From: an uncultured Porphyromonadaceae bacterium
GTDB taxonomy: Bacteria > Bacteroidota > Bacteroidia > Bacteroidales > Muribaculaceae
Assembly: GCA_947176295.1 (NCBI GenBank)
Contig: CAMWQB010000002.1
Location: 1 to 64,000 of the forward strand
Length of the DNA stretch: 64,000 nt
Direction: 5' to 3'
Part shown: positions 6,620-59,910 of the stretch, one piece after another
Position numbering within the stretch: the stretch's first letter is position 1
Layout: each line of letters opens with the position of its first letter
Position numbers and translations under genes: made by a program
The notes under the pieces: model-generated
Database searches by the model: none
What the model was told of the DNA's origin: nothing
What the model saw: only the letters and a program-made list of their open reading frames with translations

Positions 6620-7173
6620 AGAAAGACGACATAAGACGACACATACGCGCGCGCAAGGCCCTGCTGAACGCAGAGGAACGGCTTGCGGCGGCCGAACGGG
6701 TATTCGAGACCGTGCAGAAGATGGCGGCGTTCACACTGGCACGACGGATACTTCTCTACCATTCCCTACCGGACGAACTCTCGACGCGTGAATTTATCGA
6801 CCGCTGGCACGAGCGAAAGGAATTTTTCCTCCCGCGTGTGAACGGACTGAATCTCGAGATACTTCCCTACGACCGCTCGAAGCTGCACCTGGGGGCTTTC
6901 CAGATTGAGGAGCCTGACGGGACAGAAACGGTGGACCTCAAGGACATAGACCTGGTGATAGTTCCGGCAGTGGCCTACGACCGGCAAGGCAACCGCGTGG
7001 GCCGGGGGAAGGGCTACTACGACCGCCTGCTTTCGACGGCGAGGGCGCTGACAAAAATCGGTGTAGGCTACGGGTTCCAGCTCGTGGACGAAATCGAGGC
7101 GGATCCATTCGATGTGGCCGTTGATTTCGTGGTAACCGATGGCAACGGAGTGATCCGGTGCAGAAGACGCTAA
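6616..7173 (+). CDS. 5-formyltetrahydrofolate cyclo-ligase
   Basis: A cytosolic folate enzyme, 185 residues, converting 5-formyl-THF to 5,10-methenyl-THF with ATP. The family signature GRGKGYYDRLL lies at 129-139, preceded by VIVPAVAYD, and basic residues at the N-terminus (RRHIRARK) match the ATP-binding start of this family. Length is normal. Translation is coupled to the protease gene by an ATGA overlap. With the upstream dCMP deaminase it makes a small one-carbon/nucleotide group. Confidence 0.9.
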   Translation: MKKDDIRRHIRARKALLNAEERLAAAERVFETVQKMAAFTLARRILLYHSLPDELSTREFIDRWHERKEFFLPRVNGLNLEILPYDRSKLHLGAFQIEEPDGTETVDLKDIDLVIVPAVAYDRQGNRVGRGKGYYDRLLSTARALTKIGVGYGFQLVDEIEADPFDVAVDFVVTDGNGVIRCRRR

Positions 7174-7209
7174 GATCCCGTTTCCGCTCCATATTTGTTA
7201 TTATATGTT

Positions 7210-7239
7210 AAGCCCGCAACGAAAGTTGTCGGGCTTTTT
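7210..7239 (+). terminator. Intrinsic terminator before nqrA
   Basis: The stem AAGCCCG-CAAC / GTTGTCGGGCTT, with one bulge, is capped by a GAAA tetraloop and followed by a T tract. It lies 37 nt after the cyclo-ligase stop codon. Confidence 0.75.
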
Positions 7240-7258
7240 ATGGTTTTTTGTATATTTG
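7226..7258 (+). promoter_or_regulatory. Promoter of the nqr operon
   Basis: The -7 element TATATTTG (7251-7258) matches TAnnTTTG. A TTG at 7226-7228 lies 22 nt upstream and overlaps the terminator stem. The start codon of nqrA follows 44 nt after the -7 element. In Porphyromonas gingivalis the nqr promoter is reported to be bound by RprY; an RprY gene lies further along this window. Confidence 0.6.
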
Positions 7259-7302
7259 CGGATATTTTGTGTACAATACAGACACCCCACAAATTTCCTG
7301 CT

Positions 7303-8676
7303 ATGGATATTAAAATAAAGAAAGGTCTGGACCTGAAACTGGCCGGGGGCATCGAAAACGTGTCGGCGGCTCTTGCAGACTGCCGGGACGTGCATGGAGT
7401 GTGCGCGATATGCCCGGAGGACTATCCCGGCTTCAAGCCCAAGGCTCTTGTGAAAGAGGGCGATATGGTATATGCCGGCGAGCCGGTGCTCTACAACAAA
7501 GACTATGAGGGTATGACGCTTGTGTCGCCTATCGACGGGCGCGTGAAGGCTGTGGTACGCGGCGACCGCCGCCGCATCCTACGCGTAGAAATCGAGCCTA
7601 TCGAAGCCGGCGAGGCCGTTCCGCGCACAATTTTTCCAATAGAAAAGGGCACTGCCGCAAATGTGGTGAGCAGTCTCGCGCATCTGGGGCTGCTTGCCCG
7701 CTTACGCCAGAGGCCTTACGATGTGGTGCCTACGGAAGGGACGACGATGGTGCGCGACATCTACGTGATGTGCTTCGATGCAGCTCCGTTGGCGCTGTCG
7801 CTGCCGCTTGAAGCTTTCGGAAACGAAGCGGAGGAGTGGCTTAGAAGCGGTCTGGCAGTTCTCTCGCGCCTCACTACAGGAAAAGTGTACGTGGCTTGCC
7901 GGGAGGGCGACAAAGTGGCTTCCGTGTCCGGTGGCGTGCCGGGCGTTGAGATTGTCAAGGTGGCAGGACCATATCCGTCGGGGCTTCCCGGAGCTGTGAT
8001 TGCCGCGACGAAGCCGATAAACAAGGGCGAGACCGTGTGGACACTGGACCTTGCGACGGCTATCCGAGTGGGCGAGTATGCCAAACACCATAAATACGGA
8101 TTTGAGAACTACGTGGCGCTGACGGGGTCGGAACTCTCGGCTCCCGGAATAGCGAAGGCTCCGGACGGGATAGAGTTGAAGGCACTTCTGAAGGGTGTGG
8201 TGAAGGATACTCCCGAGCACAAGCGCATAATCAGCGGAAACGTGTTTACGGGCGTCCGCGAAAGCGAGGACGGCTATCTTCGCTTCCCCTACCGCCAGGT
8301 AACGGTGATTCCCGAGGGCGACGATACGGACGAATTCATGGGCTGGGCCAGCCTCGCGCCCTCGAAGGTGAGCGCCAAGCGCTCGTTCCCCCTGAGCTTC
8401 ATGCGTAAGCTGTTTTCGCCTGACGCGCGCCTGAACGGCGGCCGCCGAGCCATGATAATGAGCGGGGAATATGATAGATACATGCCTATAGACATCCTGC
8501 CGGAATATCTGGTGAAGGCCATCCTGGCCAAGGATGTGGAAGGGATGGAACGCCTGGGCATATATGAGGTTGCGCCCGAGGACTTCGCCTTGGCGGAGTT
8601 TGCGGACACGTCGAAGCTACCGCTGCAGCAAATTGTCCGCGACGGTCTTGACTACCTGCGCAAAGAATTAGAATAA
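7303..8676 (+). CDS. nqrA: Na+-translocating NADH:quinone reductase subunit A
   Basis: Soluble subunit of the sodium-pumping NADH:quinone oxidoreductase, 457 residues with the start chosen here. The protein begins MDIKIKKGLDLKLAGG, the usual NqrA N-terminus. An in-frame start 108 nt upstream (7195) would lie before the promoter and terminator and add a non-homologous hydrophobic tail, so it was rejected. The N-terminal part carries a biotinyl-lipoyl-like fold region and the rest an SLBB-like region. NqrA lies on the cytoplasmic side and contributes to quinone binding with NqrB. First of six collinear nqr genes. Confidence 0.95.
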   Translation: MDIKIKKGLDLKLAGGIENVSAALADCRDVHGVCAICPEDYPGFKPKALVKEGDMVYAGEPVLYNKDYEGMTLVSPIDGRVKAVVRGDRRRILRVEIEPIEAGEAVPRTIFPIEKGTAANVVSSLAHLGLLARLRQRPYDVVPTEGTTMVRDIYVMCFDAAPLALSLPLEAFGNEAEEWLRSGLAVLSRLTTGKVYVACREGDKVASVSGGVPGVEIVKVAGPYPSGLPGAVIAATKPINKGETVWTLDLATAIRVGEYAKHHKYGFENYVALTGSELSAPGIAKAPDGIELKALLKGVVKDTPEHKRIISGNVFTGVRESEDGYLRFPYRQVTVIPEGDDTDEFMGWASLAPSKVSAKRSFPLSFMRKLFSPDARLNGGRRAMIMSGEYDRYMPIDILPEYLVKAILAKDVEGMERLGIYEVAPEDFALAEFADTSKLPLQQIVRDGLDYLRKELE

Positions 8677-55549: not shown

Positions 55550-57772
55550 ATGAATCCGATCAAAAAAACCATCACCCTTGCCGACGGTCGCACGATAACG
55601 CTTGAGACCGGGAAGCTGGCGAAGCAGGCTGATGGAGCGGTAGAACTGCGGATGGGCAATACTATGCTTCTTGCCACCGTGGTATCGGCAAAGGAAGCCG
55701 GCGAAGGCGTCGACTTCATGCCCCTGACAGTAGAGTACAAAGAAAAATTCTCGTCGAACGGTCGCTTTCCGGGCGGCTTCCTCAAGCGCGAAGGCCGCGC
55801 GAGCGACTACGAGATCCTGACCTCGCGACTTGTAGACCGCGTGCTGCGTCCGCTTTTCCCGGACAATTACCATGCCGACACGTTTGTGAACATCATTATG
55901 TTCTCGGCCGACGGCGAGGATATGCCCGATGCCCTTGCAGGACTTGCAGCGTCGGCAGCGATAGCAGTGAGCGACATTCCCTTCAACGGGCCTATTTCGG
56001 AGGTTCGTGTTGCCCGAGTTGACGGCGAATATGTGATCAATCCTACCTTCAAGCAGCTCGAGAAGGCTGACATGGAACTGATGGTAGGTGCTACATACGA
56101 CAATATCATGATGGTGGAAGGCGAGATGGACGAAGTGTCGGAAGCCGACCTCCTTGGAGCCCTGAAGGCAGCGCACGAAGCGATCCGCGAGCAGGTGAAG
56201 GCCGTGAACGAACTGGCCGAGGCTGCCGGAGCTACGGTGAAGCGCGAATACTGCCACGAGGTGAACGACGAGGAGCTCCGCAAGGACATCCACGACAAGT
56301 GCTACGAGAAGGCATACGCCATCGCCAAGACCGGCACGGCCGACAAGCACTGGCGTCAGGAGTCGTTCGACGCTATCCGCCAGGAATATATCGATTCGCT
56401 TCCGGAGGACGTTCGCGAGGAGAAGACACCTCTTGTAAAGCGCTACTACCACGAGGTAGAGAAGGAGGCCATGCGCCGCTGCGTGCTTGACGAGGGCATC
56501 CGCCTCGACGGCCGCAAGACCACGGACATCCGCCCCATCTGGTGTGAGACGGACTACGTTCCGGGCCCTCACGGGTCGGCAGTGTTCACCCGCGGGGAGA
56601 CGCAGGCCCTGGCTACTGTAACTCTCGGCACGAAGCTTGACGAGAAGATTCTGGACGATGTTCTGAACCAGGGCCGCGAGCGTTTCCTGCTTCACTACAA
56701 CTTCCCTCCCTTCTCGACCGGCGAAGCCAAGCCTCAGCGCGGCGTGGGCCGACGCGAGGTGGGGCACGGCAACCTTGCACACCGCGCCCTGAAGCGTATG
56801 TTCCCCGAGAACTTCCCGTATGTAGTTCGCATTGTGAGCGACATCCTCGAGAGCAACGGGTCGTCGTCGATGGCAACTGTCTGCGCCGGCACTCTTTCGC
56901 TTCTTGACGCCGGCGTGAAGATGAAGAAGCCCGTGAGCGGTATCGCCATGGGTCTTATCACGGACACGAACTGCTCGAAATATGCAATTCTGAGCGATAT
57001 CCTCGGCGATGAGGACCACTTGGGTGACATGGACTTCAAGGTAACGGGCACGCGCGACGGCATCACGGCCACGCAGATGGACATCAAGTGCGACGGCCTG
57101 AGCTACGAAATCCTTGAGCGCGCTCTGAACCAGGCCCGCGAAGGCCGCCTCCACATCCTGGACAAAATCGAGGAGACCATTCCGGCTCCCCGCGAGGACT
57201 ACAAGCCTCACGTTCCGCGGATCGTGACGATGCTGATTCCGAAAGAGCTTATCGGTGCCGTAATCGGCCCGGGCGGAAAGGTGATCCAGGGCATCCAGGA
57301 GGAATCGGGTGCGACGGTAAGCATCGACGAAATCGAGGAAGGCGGCCACATAGAAGTGGCAGCACCTCACAAGGATGCTATCGACAAGGCTCTGGCTATG
57401 ATCAATGCCATAGTGGAGCTTCCCGAGGAAGGCAAGGTATATCAGGGCACTGTTCGCTCGATCATGGACTTCGGTGCATTCGTTGAATTCATGCCTCACC
57501 GCGACGGCTTGCTGCACATCAGCGAGATTTCGTGGGAGCGTCTTCCCGACATGGAAGCCTCGAAGCTTAAAGAAGGCGACAAGGTGGAAGTGAAGCTGAT
57601 TGAAATCGACAAGAAGAGCGGCAAATACCGTCTGTCGATGCGTGCGCTTCAGCCGAAGCCGGAAGGCTACGTAGAGCCTCAGCGCGGACCTCGCGGCCCG
57701 CGTCGAGAAGGCGGCGAGAACAACCGCGGCGAGCGTCGCGGCCCGCGCCGTCCGGCAGCAGAAAAGAAATAA
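55550..57772 (+). CDS. pnp: Polyribonucleotide nucleotidyltransferase (PNPase)
   Basis: A 740-residue 3'-5' phosphorolytic exoribonuclease. Two RNase PH-type domains are joined by a helical linker; the N-terminal core has [17 protein letters not shown] and the C-terminal core [25 protein letters not shown]-like residues. A KH domain (GPGG at about 572-575) and an S1 domain (about 625-700, [24 protein letters not shown]) bind RNA. The last 35 residues are rich in Arg and Gly, which could add RNA contacts. Single gene with its own promoter and terminator. Confidence 0.96.
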
Positions 57773-57784
57773 GACATGACACAC

Positions 57785-57821
57785 CACTCCCCGACGGTTG
57801 CTCGCCGGGGAGTGATTTTTT
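57785..57821 (+). terminator. Intrinsic terminator of pnp
   Basis: The stem CACTCCCC / GGGGAGTG is followed by ATTTTTT, starting 13 nt after the stop codon. Confidence 0.85.
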
Positions 57822-57830
57822 GAAGGGGGA

Positions 57831-57920
57831 ATTATCGGGATTAATCTTGATTTATCGGGATCAAGCGGGGATGAGCGGGATTAAGCAGGGAACAAAGGGC
57901 ATTGTCAGGAATATGCGAGG
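57831..57920. repeat. 10-bp phased degenerate tandem repeat (copy 1)
   Basis: Nine consecutive units of exactly 10 bp, rough consensus ATTAAGCGGG or TTATCGGGAT, with the GGG staying in register through all units. It lies between the pnp terminator and the acpP promoter and does not code for protein. A second array of the same unit lies after fabF (59841-59910). Confidence 0.65.
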
Positions 57921-58005
57921 GAGGGATTGAGCCTCGTTAACAATTTTTTAAGAGGATATTGAGTGGAAAATTGCGGAAAAATTTCTTTATATGCCGAATT
58001 TTTTG

Positions 58006-58013
58006 TTACTTTG
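58006..58013 (+). promoter_or_regulatory. Probable -7 element of acpP
   Basis: TTACTTTG differs from TAnnTTTG by one base and lies 42 nt before acpP. The -33 region is T-rich without a clean TTG. GTTAACAA occurs at 57936-57943, about 63 nt further up. Confidence 0.45.
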
Positions 58014-58055: not shown

Positions 58056-58289
58056 ATGTCTGAAATTGCAGATCGCGTAAAAGCTATCGTAGTAGACAAG
58101 CTCGGCGTAGACGCTGACAAAGTAACTGAAGAAGCAACCTTCATCAACGACCTTGGCGCCGACAGCCTCGACACTGTAGAGCTGATCATGGACCTCGAAA
58201 AGGAATTCAACATCACTATTCCTGAGGACAAGGCAGAAGAAATCAAGACGGTAGGCGACGCAATCGCTTTCGTAGAAGCCAGCAAGTAA
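58056..58289 (+). CDS. acpP: Acyl carrier protein
   Basis: A 77-residue acidic carrier protein of type II fatty-acid synthesis. The phosphopantetheine site is Ser37 in [12 protein letters not shown]. Four-helix pattern and length are standard. It precedes fabF, an arrangement common to many bacteria. Codon use is unusually uniform, as expected for a highly expressed gene. Confidence 0.97.
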
Positions 58290-58495: not shown

Positions 58496-59761
58496 ATGGA
58501 ATTAAAAAGAGTCGTGGTAACAGGCTTAGGCGCCATCACCCCTCTTGGCAATGACGTAGCAACGACATGGGCCAATGCAAAAGAGGGCGTGAGCGGAGCG
58601 GGCCCTATCACCCATTTCGACGCCTCGAAGTTCAAGACGCAGTTTGCGTGCGAGGTCAAGGGCTACAATGCCGCAGACCACTTCGACCGCAAGAAGGAGC
58701 GTCAGCTTGACCTCTATGCTCAGTATGCCCTCGTGGCTGCCCGCCAGGCAGTGGAGGATTCGGGCATCAATGCCGAGAGCGTGGACCACAACCGTGTGGG
58801 TGTGATTGTAGCAGCCGGCATCGGCGGGCTCCACACCTTTGAGGAAGAGGCAGGATATTTCGCACTTACGGGCGAAGAAAAGGGCCCGAAGTACAATCCG
58901 TTCTTCATCCCTAAGATGATTGCGGACATCGCCTCGGGCCACATATCGATGGAATATGGCTTCCACGGCCCGAACTACGGCGTGGTGAGTGCATGCGCCT
59001 CGTCGAACAATGCGATAATCGACGCATTCAACTATATCCGTCTGGGCAAGGCTGATGCCTTTATCACCGGCGGCGCGGAAGCAGCAGTCTTCCCAGCGGG
59101 CGTGGGCGGCTTCAACTCGATGCACGCACTTTCGACGCGCAACGACAGTCCGAAGACGGCTTCGCGCCCCTTCAGCGCCAGCCGCGACGGCTTCGTAATC
59201 GGCGAGGGTGCTACAGTGCTCATCCTCGAAGAGCTGGAGCATGCGAAGGCACGCGGAGCGAAGATCTATGCCGAGGTTGTGGGCGGCGGCATGAGCGCCG
59301 ACGCTTATCACATCACGGCTACGCACCCCGAAGGCCTTGGCGCTATCCTCTCGATGAAGATGGCTCTCGAGGACGCAGGGATGAAGCCTGAGGATATCGA
59401 CTACATCAACGTGCACGGCACGTCGACCCCGAAGGGCGATATCTCCGAGGTGAAGGCTATCGTGGACCTCTTCGGCGATGCGGCCTACAAGCTGAATATC
59501 TCGTCGACGAAGTCGATGACGGGCCACCTCCTGGGCGCTACGGGCGCTATGGAAGCAATGTTCAGCATCAAGGCTGTTGAGGAAGACATCGTGCCTCCGA
59601 CCATCAACCATGAGGAGGGCGACAATGATCCTGAGATTGACTACAACCTGAACTTTACTTTCGGCAAGGCCCAGCATCGCAAGGTGCGTGCGGCGCTTTC
59701 GAACGCTTTCGGTTTCGGCGGCCACAATGCTTCCGTGATCGTGAAGAAGTACGAGGAATAA
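58496..59761 (+). CDS. fabF: Beta-ketoacyl-ACP synthase II
   Basis: A 421-residue condensing enzyme of fatty-acid elongation. The thiolase-fold catalytic triad is complete: Cys167 in VVSACASSNNAI, His307 in NVHGTSTPKGD and His344 in SMTGHLLGATGAME. The start MELKRVVVTGLGAITPLGN is the usual FabF N-terminus. It elongates acyl chains bound to the ACP encoded 207 nt upstream. Followed by a strong terminator. Confidence 0.97.
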   Translation: MELKRVVVTGLGAITPLGNDVATTWANAKEGVSGAGPITHFDASKFKTQFACEVKGYNAADHFDRKKERQLDLYAQYALVAARQAVEDSGINAESVDHNRVGVIVAAGIGGLHTFEEEAGYFALTGEEKGPKYNPFFIPKMIADIASGHISMEYGFHGPNYGVVSACASSNNAIIDAFNYIRLGKADAFITGGAEAAVFPAGVGGFNSMHALSTRNDSPKTASRPFSASRDGFVIGEGATVLILEELEHAKARGAKIYAEVVGGGMSADAYHITATHPEGLGAILSMKMALEDAGMKPEDIDYINVHGTSTPKGDISEVKAIVDLFGDAAYKLNISSTKSMTGHLLGATGAMEAMFSIKAVEEDIVPPTINHEEGDNDPEIDYNLNFTFGKAQHRKVRAALSNAFGFGGHNASVIVKKYEE

Positions 59762-59785
59762 AATTTTTACAAGCTCAAGATAAGG

Positions 59786-59826
59786 ACACCTCCGGGGCGA
59801 TCGCTCCGGAGGTGTTGTTTTTTTTG
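59786..59826 (+). terminator. Intrinsic terminator of fabF
   Basis: The stem ACACCTCCGG / CCGGAGGTGT around a GCGATCGC loop is followed by TTGTTTTTTTT, then a run of nine Gs. Confidence 0.85.
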
Positions 59827-59840
59827 GGGGGGGGAGTGGG

Positions 59841-59910
59841 AATGTCGTGGATTTTTCGGGACTAATCGGGGAAAATCGAGATTAATCGGGATTTAGCGGG
59901 AATGGGGTCG
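59841..59910. repeat. 10-bp phased degenerate tandem repeat (copy 2)
   Basis: Seven consecutive 10-bp units, clearest as ATTTTTCGGG, ACTAATCGGG, ATTAATCGGG and ATTTAGCGGG. It sits between the fabF terminator and the 3' end of the convergent lysozyme gene. Unit and phase match the array upstream of acpP. Confidence 0.65.

Follow-up and report, generated by a model that had tools for sequence, protein, structure and literature searches.

What is the array of 10-bp repeats that lies between the genes for polynucleotide phosphorylase (pnp) and acyl carrier protein (acpP): a site that serves its two neighbours, or the trace of something else? The window, that is, the whole stretch of 64,000 nucleotides that was analysed, contains two arrays of this unit, in the following surroundings.

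55550 to 57772, + strand: pnp (polynucleotide phosphorylase), upstream of the first array, with RNase_PH, KH, S1 and PNPase domains
57784 to 57822, + strand: pnp intrinsic terminator, directly upstream of the first array, stem CACTCCCCG..CGGGGAGTG, then T6 (-20.7 kcal/mol, z -3.8)
57826 to 57925, + strand: first solo array, period 10 bp, consensus CGGGATTAAT (= AATCNNGATT in tandem)
58007 to 58013, + strand: TACTTTG, candidate acpP promoter -7 element, downstream of the first array; motif present in relatives
58056 to 58289, + strand: acpP (acyl carrier protein; PF00550), downstream of the first array
58496 to 59761, + strand: fabF (Pfam), upstream of the second array
59785 to 59824, + strand: fabF intrinsic terminator, directly upstream of the second array (-27.8 kcal/mol, z -7.6)
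59828 to 59906, + strand: second solo array, unit as at pnp-acpP, with fabF on one side and a convergent gene for a GH25 lysozyme on the other

The first array lies where a sequence-only reading of the locus had placed it, its first base 54 bp past the pnp stop and its last about 130 bp ahead of the acpP start, and the identities of pnp, acpP, fabF and the convergent GH25 gene were confirmed with Pfam. Its units are, in order, GGGGAATTAT, CGGGATTAAT, CTTGATTTAT, CGGGATCAAG, CGGGGATGAG, CGGGATTAAG, CAGGGAACAA, AGGGCATTGT, CAGGAATATG and CGAGGGAGGG, and its 3' end is decayed. The array matches itself at 0.49, 0.54 and 0.49 for lags of 10, 20 and 30, against about 0.25 at other lags. Over 57823-57942 there are 52/110 lag-10 matches, against 30.9 ± 5.2 expected from Markov shuffles, a score reached by 2 of 20,000 shuffles, or by 2 of 3,000 if any lag from 5 to 20 is allowed. 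The periodicity that the sequence-only reading described is therefore well supported, but its nine exact units with GGG were an idealisation: GGG is strictly in phase six times (57827, 57837, 57857, 57867, 57877 and 57897), the unit at 57847 has TTG, the next GGG is one base off (57888) and the final units have AGG and GAGGG. No open reading frame or protein relic fits the array, in agreement with its description as non-coding, and hidden protein relics, sought at both window arrays, were not found. The units are contiguous, without the unique spacers that separate CRISPR repeats, and their period of 10 is not that of the STRR heptamers. The proposed phasing of one unit per helical turn had to be given up, since a repeat of exactly 10.0 bp would be out of register by about 137 degrees after 8 steps on 10.5-bp DNA, and since periods of 7, 8 or 9 bp occur in sister array families.

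Direct folding showed that both window arrays start a few bases past the T-run of a strong intrinsic terminator. TACTTTG at 58007-58013, which we take to be a -7 element of the Bacteroidota TAnnTTTG type, is by its motif probably that of the acpP promoter; because it lies downstream of the first array, this array would be outside the acpP leader. A general targeting of sites after terminators was considered and rejected: it fits both window arrays and locus L348 of the closest species found, G066 (by eye also L344), and fails for most G066 arrays. A run of at least nine G precedes the second array, past the fabF terminator.

Arrays of the unit had been expected elsewhere in the genome, and they are present. 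A scan covering 1.18 Mb of the 2.23-Mb source genome (53%) gave four arrays, as contig C54 carries a further one and contig C13 a short one in addition to the pair in the window. Genus-wide, arrays of the GATTAATC unit are numerous in some species (G015, G066, G070, G001, G008) and zero in most others, and the backwards pattern, searched as a control, gave almost no matches. An exact 20-bp search among 84,980 species returned 23 stretches, 18 of them titled Bacteroidales (Muribaculaceae, Porphyromonadaceae, Duncaniella, Amulumruptor, Bacteroidales). The arrays are dispersed and intergenic, both within the genus and in other Bacteroidales, and, like STRRs, consist of degenerate short tandem units. 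Relatives keep the spacing while the bases drift, as had been predicted; what stays constant is, however, not the GGG core but GATTAATC, i.e., the palindrome AATCNNGATT in tandem, with a variable dinucleotide that may be GG, GA, TT, AA, CC, CT or AT, GG being merely the commonest. The GGG core at pnp-acpP is, as far as the sequences of relatives tell, a local flavour of the unit. Unit palindromy exceeded a column-permutation null at p<0.05 in 16 of 54 arrays (about 3 expected). Several G066 arrays (L345, L346, L349, L352) adjoin REP-like palindromes (GACGTGCCGAAGGCACGTCCCTAC / GACGGGCCGGAGGCTCGTCCCTAC), possibly GTAG-type REPs, as G066 arrays often do; these palindromes were sought in the 64-kb window and not found. 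Between co-directed genes at other Bacteroidales loci (L143-L165) the G-rich strand is mostly antisense (~10 vs 1), opposite to the pnp-acpP array, where it is sense to pnp and acpP; the bias is somewhat like the one reported for GGGNATC repeats.

The array on C54 overlaps the stop codon of a decayed cognate gene, with a broken frame and an internal loss. This four-helix-bundle/zinc-ribbon gene (L132) lies at about 6845-7600 of the contig, between ribosome-hibernation-factor-like and DUF177-like genes. Intact relatives of this gene are present in G066 and G008; their product is a four-helix bundle with a TIGR04258 suffix domain and a C-terminal topoisomerase-type zinc ribbon, and the intact G066 gene has GATTAATC arrays over both of its ends. 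By profile and fold, the partner genes belong to the S23/23S-rRNA-IVP family (PF05635, TIGR02436 and TIGR04258). TIGR04258 scores above its cut-off, as does TIGR02436 for a short subtype, whereas the zinc-ribbon subtype falls just under the latter cut-off (23 vs 24 bits). A profile match to 2gsc has an E-value of 9.5e-5. Foldseek ranked 2gsc (a pentamer) and 2rld on top, with a best-chain probability of 0.97-1.0 but E >0.01, and the AF2 model, with a pLDDT of 87, is similar to pentameric Xcc0516 and to BT_0352. With Pfam and NCBIfam, the partner protein matched only 23S_rRNA_IVP/TIGR02436, TIGR04258 and the topoisomerase zinc ribbon, and no transposase or catalytic DNA-moving domain, the Y1/HUH tyrosine transposase of RAYTs included. 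A search of phages for the four-helix-bundle gene gave no match.

Such genes and such arrays are associated. TIGR04258 has 72 matches, in 31 of 49 genus genomes. An array with a period of 8-11 bp lies at most 150 bp from 81% of 70 TIGR04258 genes and from 10.9% of 521 control genes (OR 36, p 1e-34); the contrast is conservative, as the controls include neighbours of solo arrays. With a stricter cut, arrays were present genus-wide at 49/67 TIGR04258 genes and at 0/36 acpP-locus genes of the same genus. The gene-flank controls in general rest on simple ORF calls, and most data come from MAGs. The flanking units differ among the genes (CCTTAAAGA, CTTATAAAT, CCAATTAGA, TTAGCTAAA, CTCGGAGTT, GTCNGACNG, TTGACAAAT, CGATATAA, AATCNNGATT and others), and at the 11 genes with arrays on two sides both sides share the unit (6-mer sharing 0.42 vs 0.04). 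Flanks are inverted at 53% of TIGR02436 genes across the phylum (above the 95% null) against 5% of control genes, with direct orientation at 7%; for TIGR04258 cassettes inversion is not significant, because many units are palindromic and many cassettes one-sided. At one locus (L139, contig C51 of G004) two copies of the 5' part of uvrB enclose a four-helix-bundle fragment and array, possibly through duplication by insertion, or through misassembly.

The unit also follows the protein. In a maximum-likelihood tree of 57 proteins, unit types group in clades, and protein identity correlates with array 6-mer sharing (Mantel r 0.58, 0/2000 permutations, same-site pairs removed), sharing being about zero below 60% identity and common above 70%. 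Repeat and protein thus co-diverge, as in RAYT-type systems; common descent of one cassette, not recognition, could partly account for this correlation. If the cognate gene is counted as present even when decayed or fragmentary, GATTAATC arrays occur in 7 of 8 genomes with it, against 4 of 41 without it (p 3e-5); CCTTAAAG arrays occur in 9/10 genomes with a gene of the cognate clade and in 6/39 without (p 2e-5). Swapped array-gene pairings are not significant (p 0.25 and 0.47), and repeat abundance tracks the cognate gene, again as with RAYTs. G001, G070, G024 and G035 have GATTAATC arrays and no detected cognate gene, through gene loss, incomplete MAGs or independence, and G069 has the gene and no matching solo arrays. 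In G001, without a detected TIGR04258 gene, three loci (L124, L126, L128) are composite arrays in which GATTAATC-type units adjoin 9-bp GTCGGACNG units.

Considering these results, we regard it as probable that the pnp-acpP array is a solo copy, now decaying, of a dispersed, two-part repeat-plus-protein element, REPIN/RAYT-like with a non-RAYT protein. One part of the element would be a small four-helix-bundle gene (S23/23S-rRNA-IVP, here of the zinc-ribbon subtype) bounded by short tandem arrays, and the second would be gene-less arrays, with the unit of the cassette, scattered through intergenic DNA. Each protein lineage would have its own palindromic or inverted unit, here AATCNNGATT with a period of 10. 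The oligomeric protein most likely recognises the tandem units, and recognition would lead to the arrays, with or without the gene, being copied or moved to intergenic sites, as RAYT spreads REPINs. As the cognate gene of the source genome appears to be only the broken remnant on C54, the window arrays would no longer spread and are most simply read as fossils, presumably drifting by substitution since the gene was lost, so that the 10-bp spacing stays visible while the bases diverge. Against this reading count that no catalytic domain able to move DNA was found in the protein, that neither a target-site duplication nor an exact boundary of the element is defined, and that G069 and the four genomes with GATTAATC arrays but no detected cognate gene depart from the pairing.

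The sites themselves turn over rapidly between sister species. At the pnp-acpP locus, where it is 82-85% identical in nucleotides, G066 has no array after pnp, nor has it one after fabF. Conversely, among ten sampled G066 arrays, the neighbourhoods of L347, L348, L349, L352 and cassette L353 can be aligned in the source genome, with no GATTAATC array there, and at L344 the source genome has a different 10-bp array at the matching site. Since the sites differ in both directions, arrays come and go quickly on these alignments, as conserved regulatory sites would not. A regulatory site of acpP or pnp was rejected as the main reading, as G066 lacks the array yet keeps terminator and promoter, and the pnp-acpP spacer is kept in no other genus member examined. 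A broader form of the idea, close to the cooperative protein binding that was first suggested, is that the four-helix-bundle protein and the arrays constitute a regulatory or chromosome-organising system, in which the arrays are maintained cooperative binding sites and the protein is no mobility factor. It draws on the tandem palindromic units, the pairing of one unit with one protein clade, the zinc-ribbon domain of the partner subtype and the intergenic position of the arrays, sometimes directly after terminators. We consider it unlikely, because even sister species differ in their sites, and because the units at pnp-acpP are degenerate and their own cognate gene is broken, so that this copy is unlikely to function. 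The first suggestion keeps its merit in that palindromic tandem units suit an oligomeric protein, although the analysis pointed to a family of four-helix-bundle genes as the partner and not to the nucleoid protein that had been envisaged.

The arrays could also act as RNA, inverted or palindromic flanks pairing in the transcript around the ORF like the 23S rRNA intervening sequences excised by RNase III, with solo arrays as remnants. Some S23/IVP-family members are encoded within rRNA intervening sequences (PMC11270868), and inverted flanks occur at many genes. Against this, neither strand of the window arrays folds better than its shuffles do (z 0.36, -0.12, 1.18, -0.91), and the arrays lie after terminators, probably outside transcripts, which makes an RNA-level element quite improbable; a structured RNA was rejected on the same folding, and Rfam gave nothing credible. 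Replication slippage, without any protein, would produce a neutral minisatellite with short tandem units, variable copy number and decayed ends, all of which the arrays display. Such an origin is very improbable, however, for one unit that recurs at unrelated sites and in unrelated genomes beside one protein family, for unit types that follow the protein clade and for a genome co-occurrence specific to the cognate pair. A G-quadruplex or Rho/termination element, in which GGG at 10-nt intervals (CCC on the opposite strand) would act on transcription, is scarcely credible. In its favour, G3N7 repeats have the spacing of canonical G4s, G4 formation in vitro is reported for the similar GGGNATC repeats (PMC4692102), and the G-rich strand is mostly antisense to co-directed genes in other Bacteroidales. 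Against it, the G tract, which a conserved G4 function would keep, is just where the unit varies among relatives, G tracts are absent from other array families, and the window G strand is sense to its neighbours.

Among worked-out systems, REPIN/RAYT is the closest parallel to the repeat-plus-protein element, with dispersed intergenic repeats, a gene flanked by repeats, co-divergence, and gene presence that goes with repeat abundance (PMC2817692, PMC3116915). RAYT is an IS200/IS605-type tyrosine transposase and its repeats are 20-40-bp hairpins (PMC2817692, PMC3116915), whereas here a four-helix bundle without a transposase domain accompanies tandem arrays of 7-10-bp units; repeats inverted around the gene, also RAYT-like, are found for TIGR02436 and cyanobacterial plasmid genes and, without significance, for TIGR04258. 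Because the RAYT transposase is absent, we do not file the array system as a member, but by analogy it would work in a similar way. The partner genes match the S23/IVP and Avd-like four-helix-bundle proteins (PF05635, TIGR02436, TIGR04258; 2gsc, 2rld) by profile and fold; in contrast to the S23/IVP genes borne by rRNA, they sit between protein genes and are bounded by unit-specific arrays. Cyanobacterial STRRs, the GGGNATC repeats of Xanthomonas and Nostoc (PMC4692102) and the TAACTGA repeats (PMC4679880) are likewise short degenerate tandem units, intergenic, in few to dozens of copies and genome-wide, while the unit in the window is 10 bp long and palindromic. The abstracts of both papers propose no S23/IVP-family partner for such arrays (PMC4692102, PMC4679880). 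No link between four-helix-bundle genes and such arrays was found in the open-access literature, to which the search was confined, so that an earlier description in subscription papers is possible.

On cyanobacterial plasmids, S23/four-helix-bundle genes lie between inverted heptamer arrays of the STRR kind (AGGGAGT / ACTCCCT; GGGAACA / TGTTCCC), inserted so as to separate, for example, nrdB from nrdA or cas6 from cas4. STRR heptamers have long been known in cyanobacteria. Inverted flanks were found at 10/14 of these plasmid genes against 0/60 controls (p 1e-9), and periodic flanks at 10/14 against 4/60. An extra four-helix-bundle gene (L408), inside a control stretch and outside the test, has the inverted-array pattern by eye. 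At L396, L404 and L406, also on cyanobacterial plasmids, four-helix-bundle genes are wedged among cas genes with short repeats as bounds. IVP-family genes have been published as found near cas genes, and this CRISPR linkage may reflect insertion, not function.

Both the scattered short tandem repeats of bacteria (cyanobacterial STRRs and many unnamed Bacteroidota arrays) and the S23/IVP family have lacked an explanation. We hold it an evenly balanced proposition that S23/IVP four-helix-bundle proteins are the specificity factors of widespread, RAYT-independent, repeat-bounded mobile cassettes, each lineage reading a tandem unit of its own, palindromic or inverted and 7-10 bp long, and seeding gene-less arrays of it. 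If true, this would explain the cyanobacterial STRRs as well as a protein family that has no known function, and would give unexplained short repeat arrays in several bacterial groups a testable origin. If each protein lineage pairs with one unit, the unit could be predicted from the protein, and binding and spread could be tested. The window array, itself probably inert, would be the sort of fossil that such a system leaves, and it cautions against taking every conspicuous "phased array" near a housekeeping gene for a regulatory site.

GxxExxY (TIGR04256) genes, which encode an unrelated protein, resemble the four-helix-bundle cassettes in their surroundings, although their units are not palindromic. 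In the genus, 13/21 of them have periodic flanks, often as inverted copies on two sides, and flanking words are inverted in 65%. Inverted array-like repeats form the bounds of these genes at L293-L313, for example CCACGGATTTCACGG.. / ..CCGTGAAATCCGTGG in L298.
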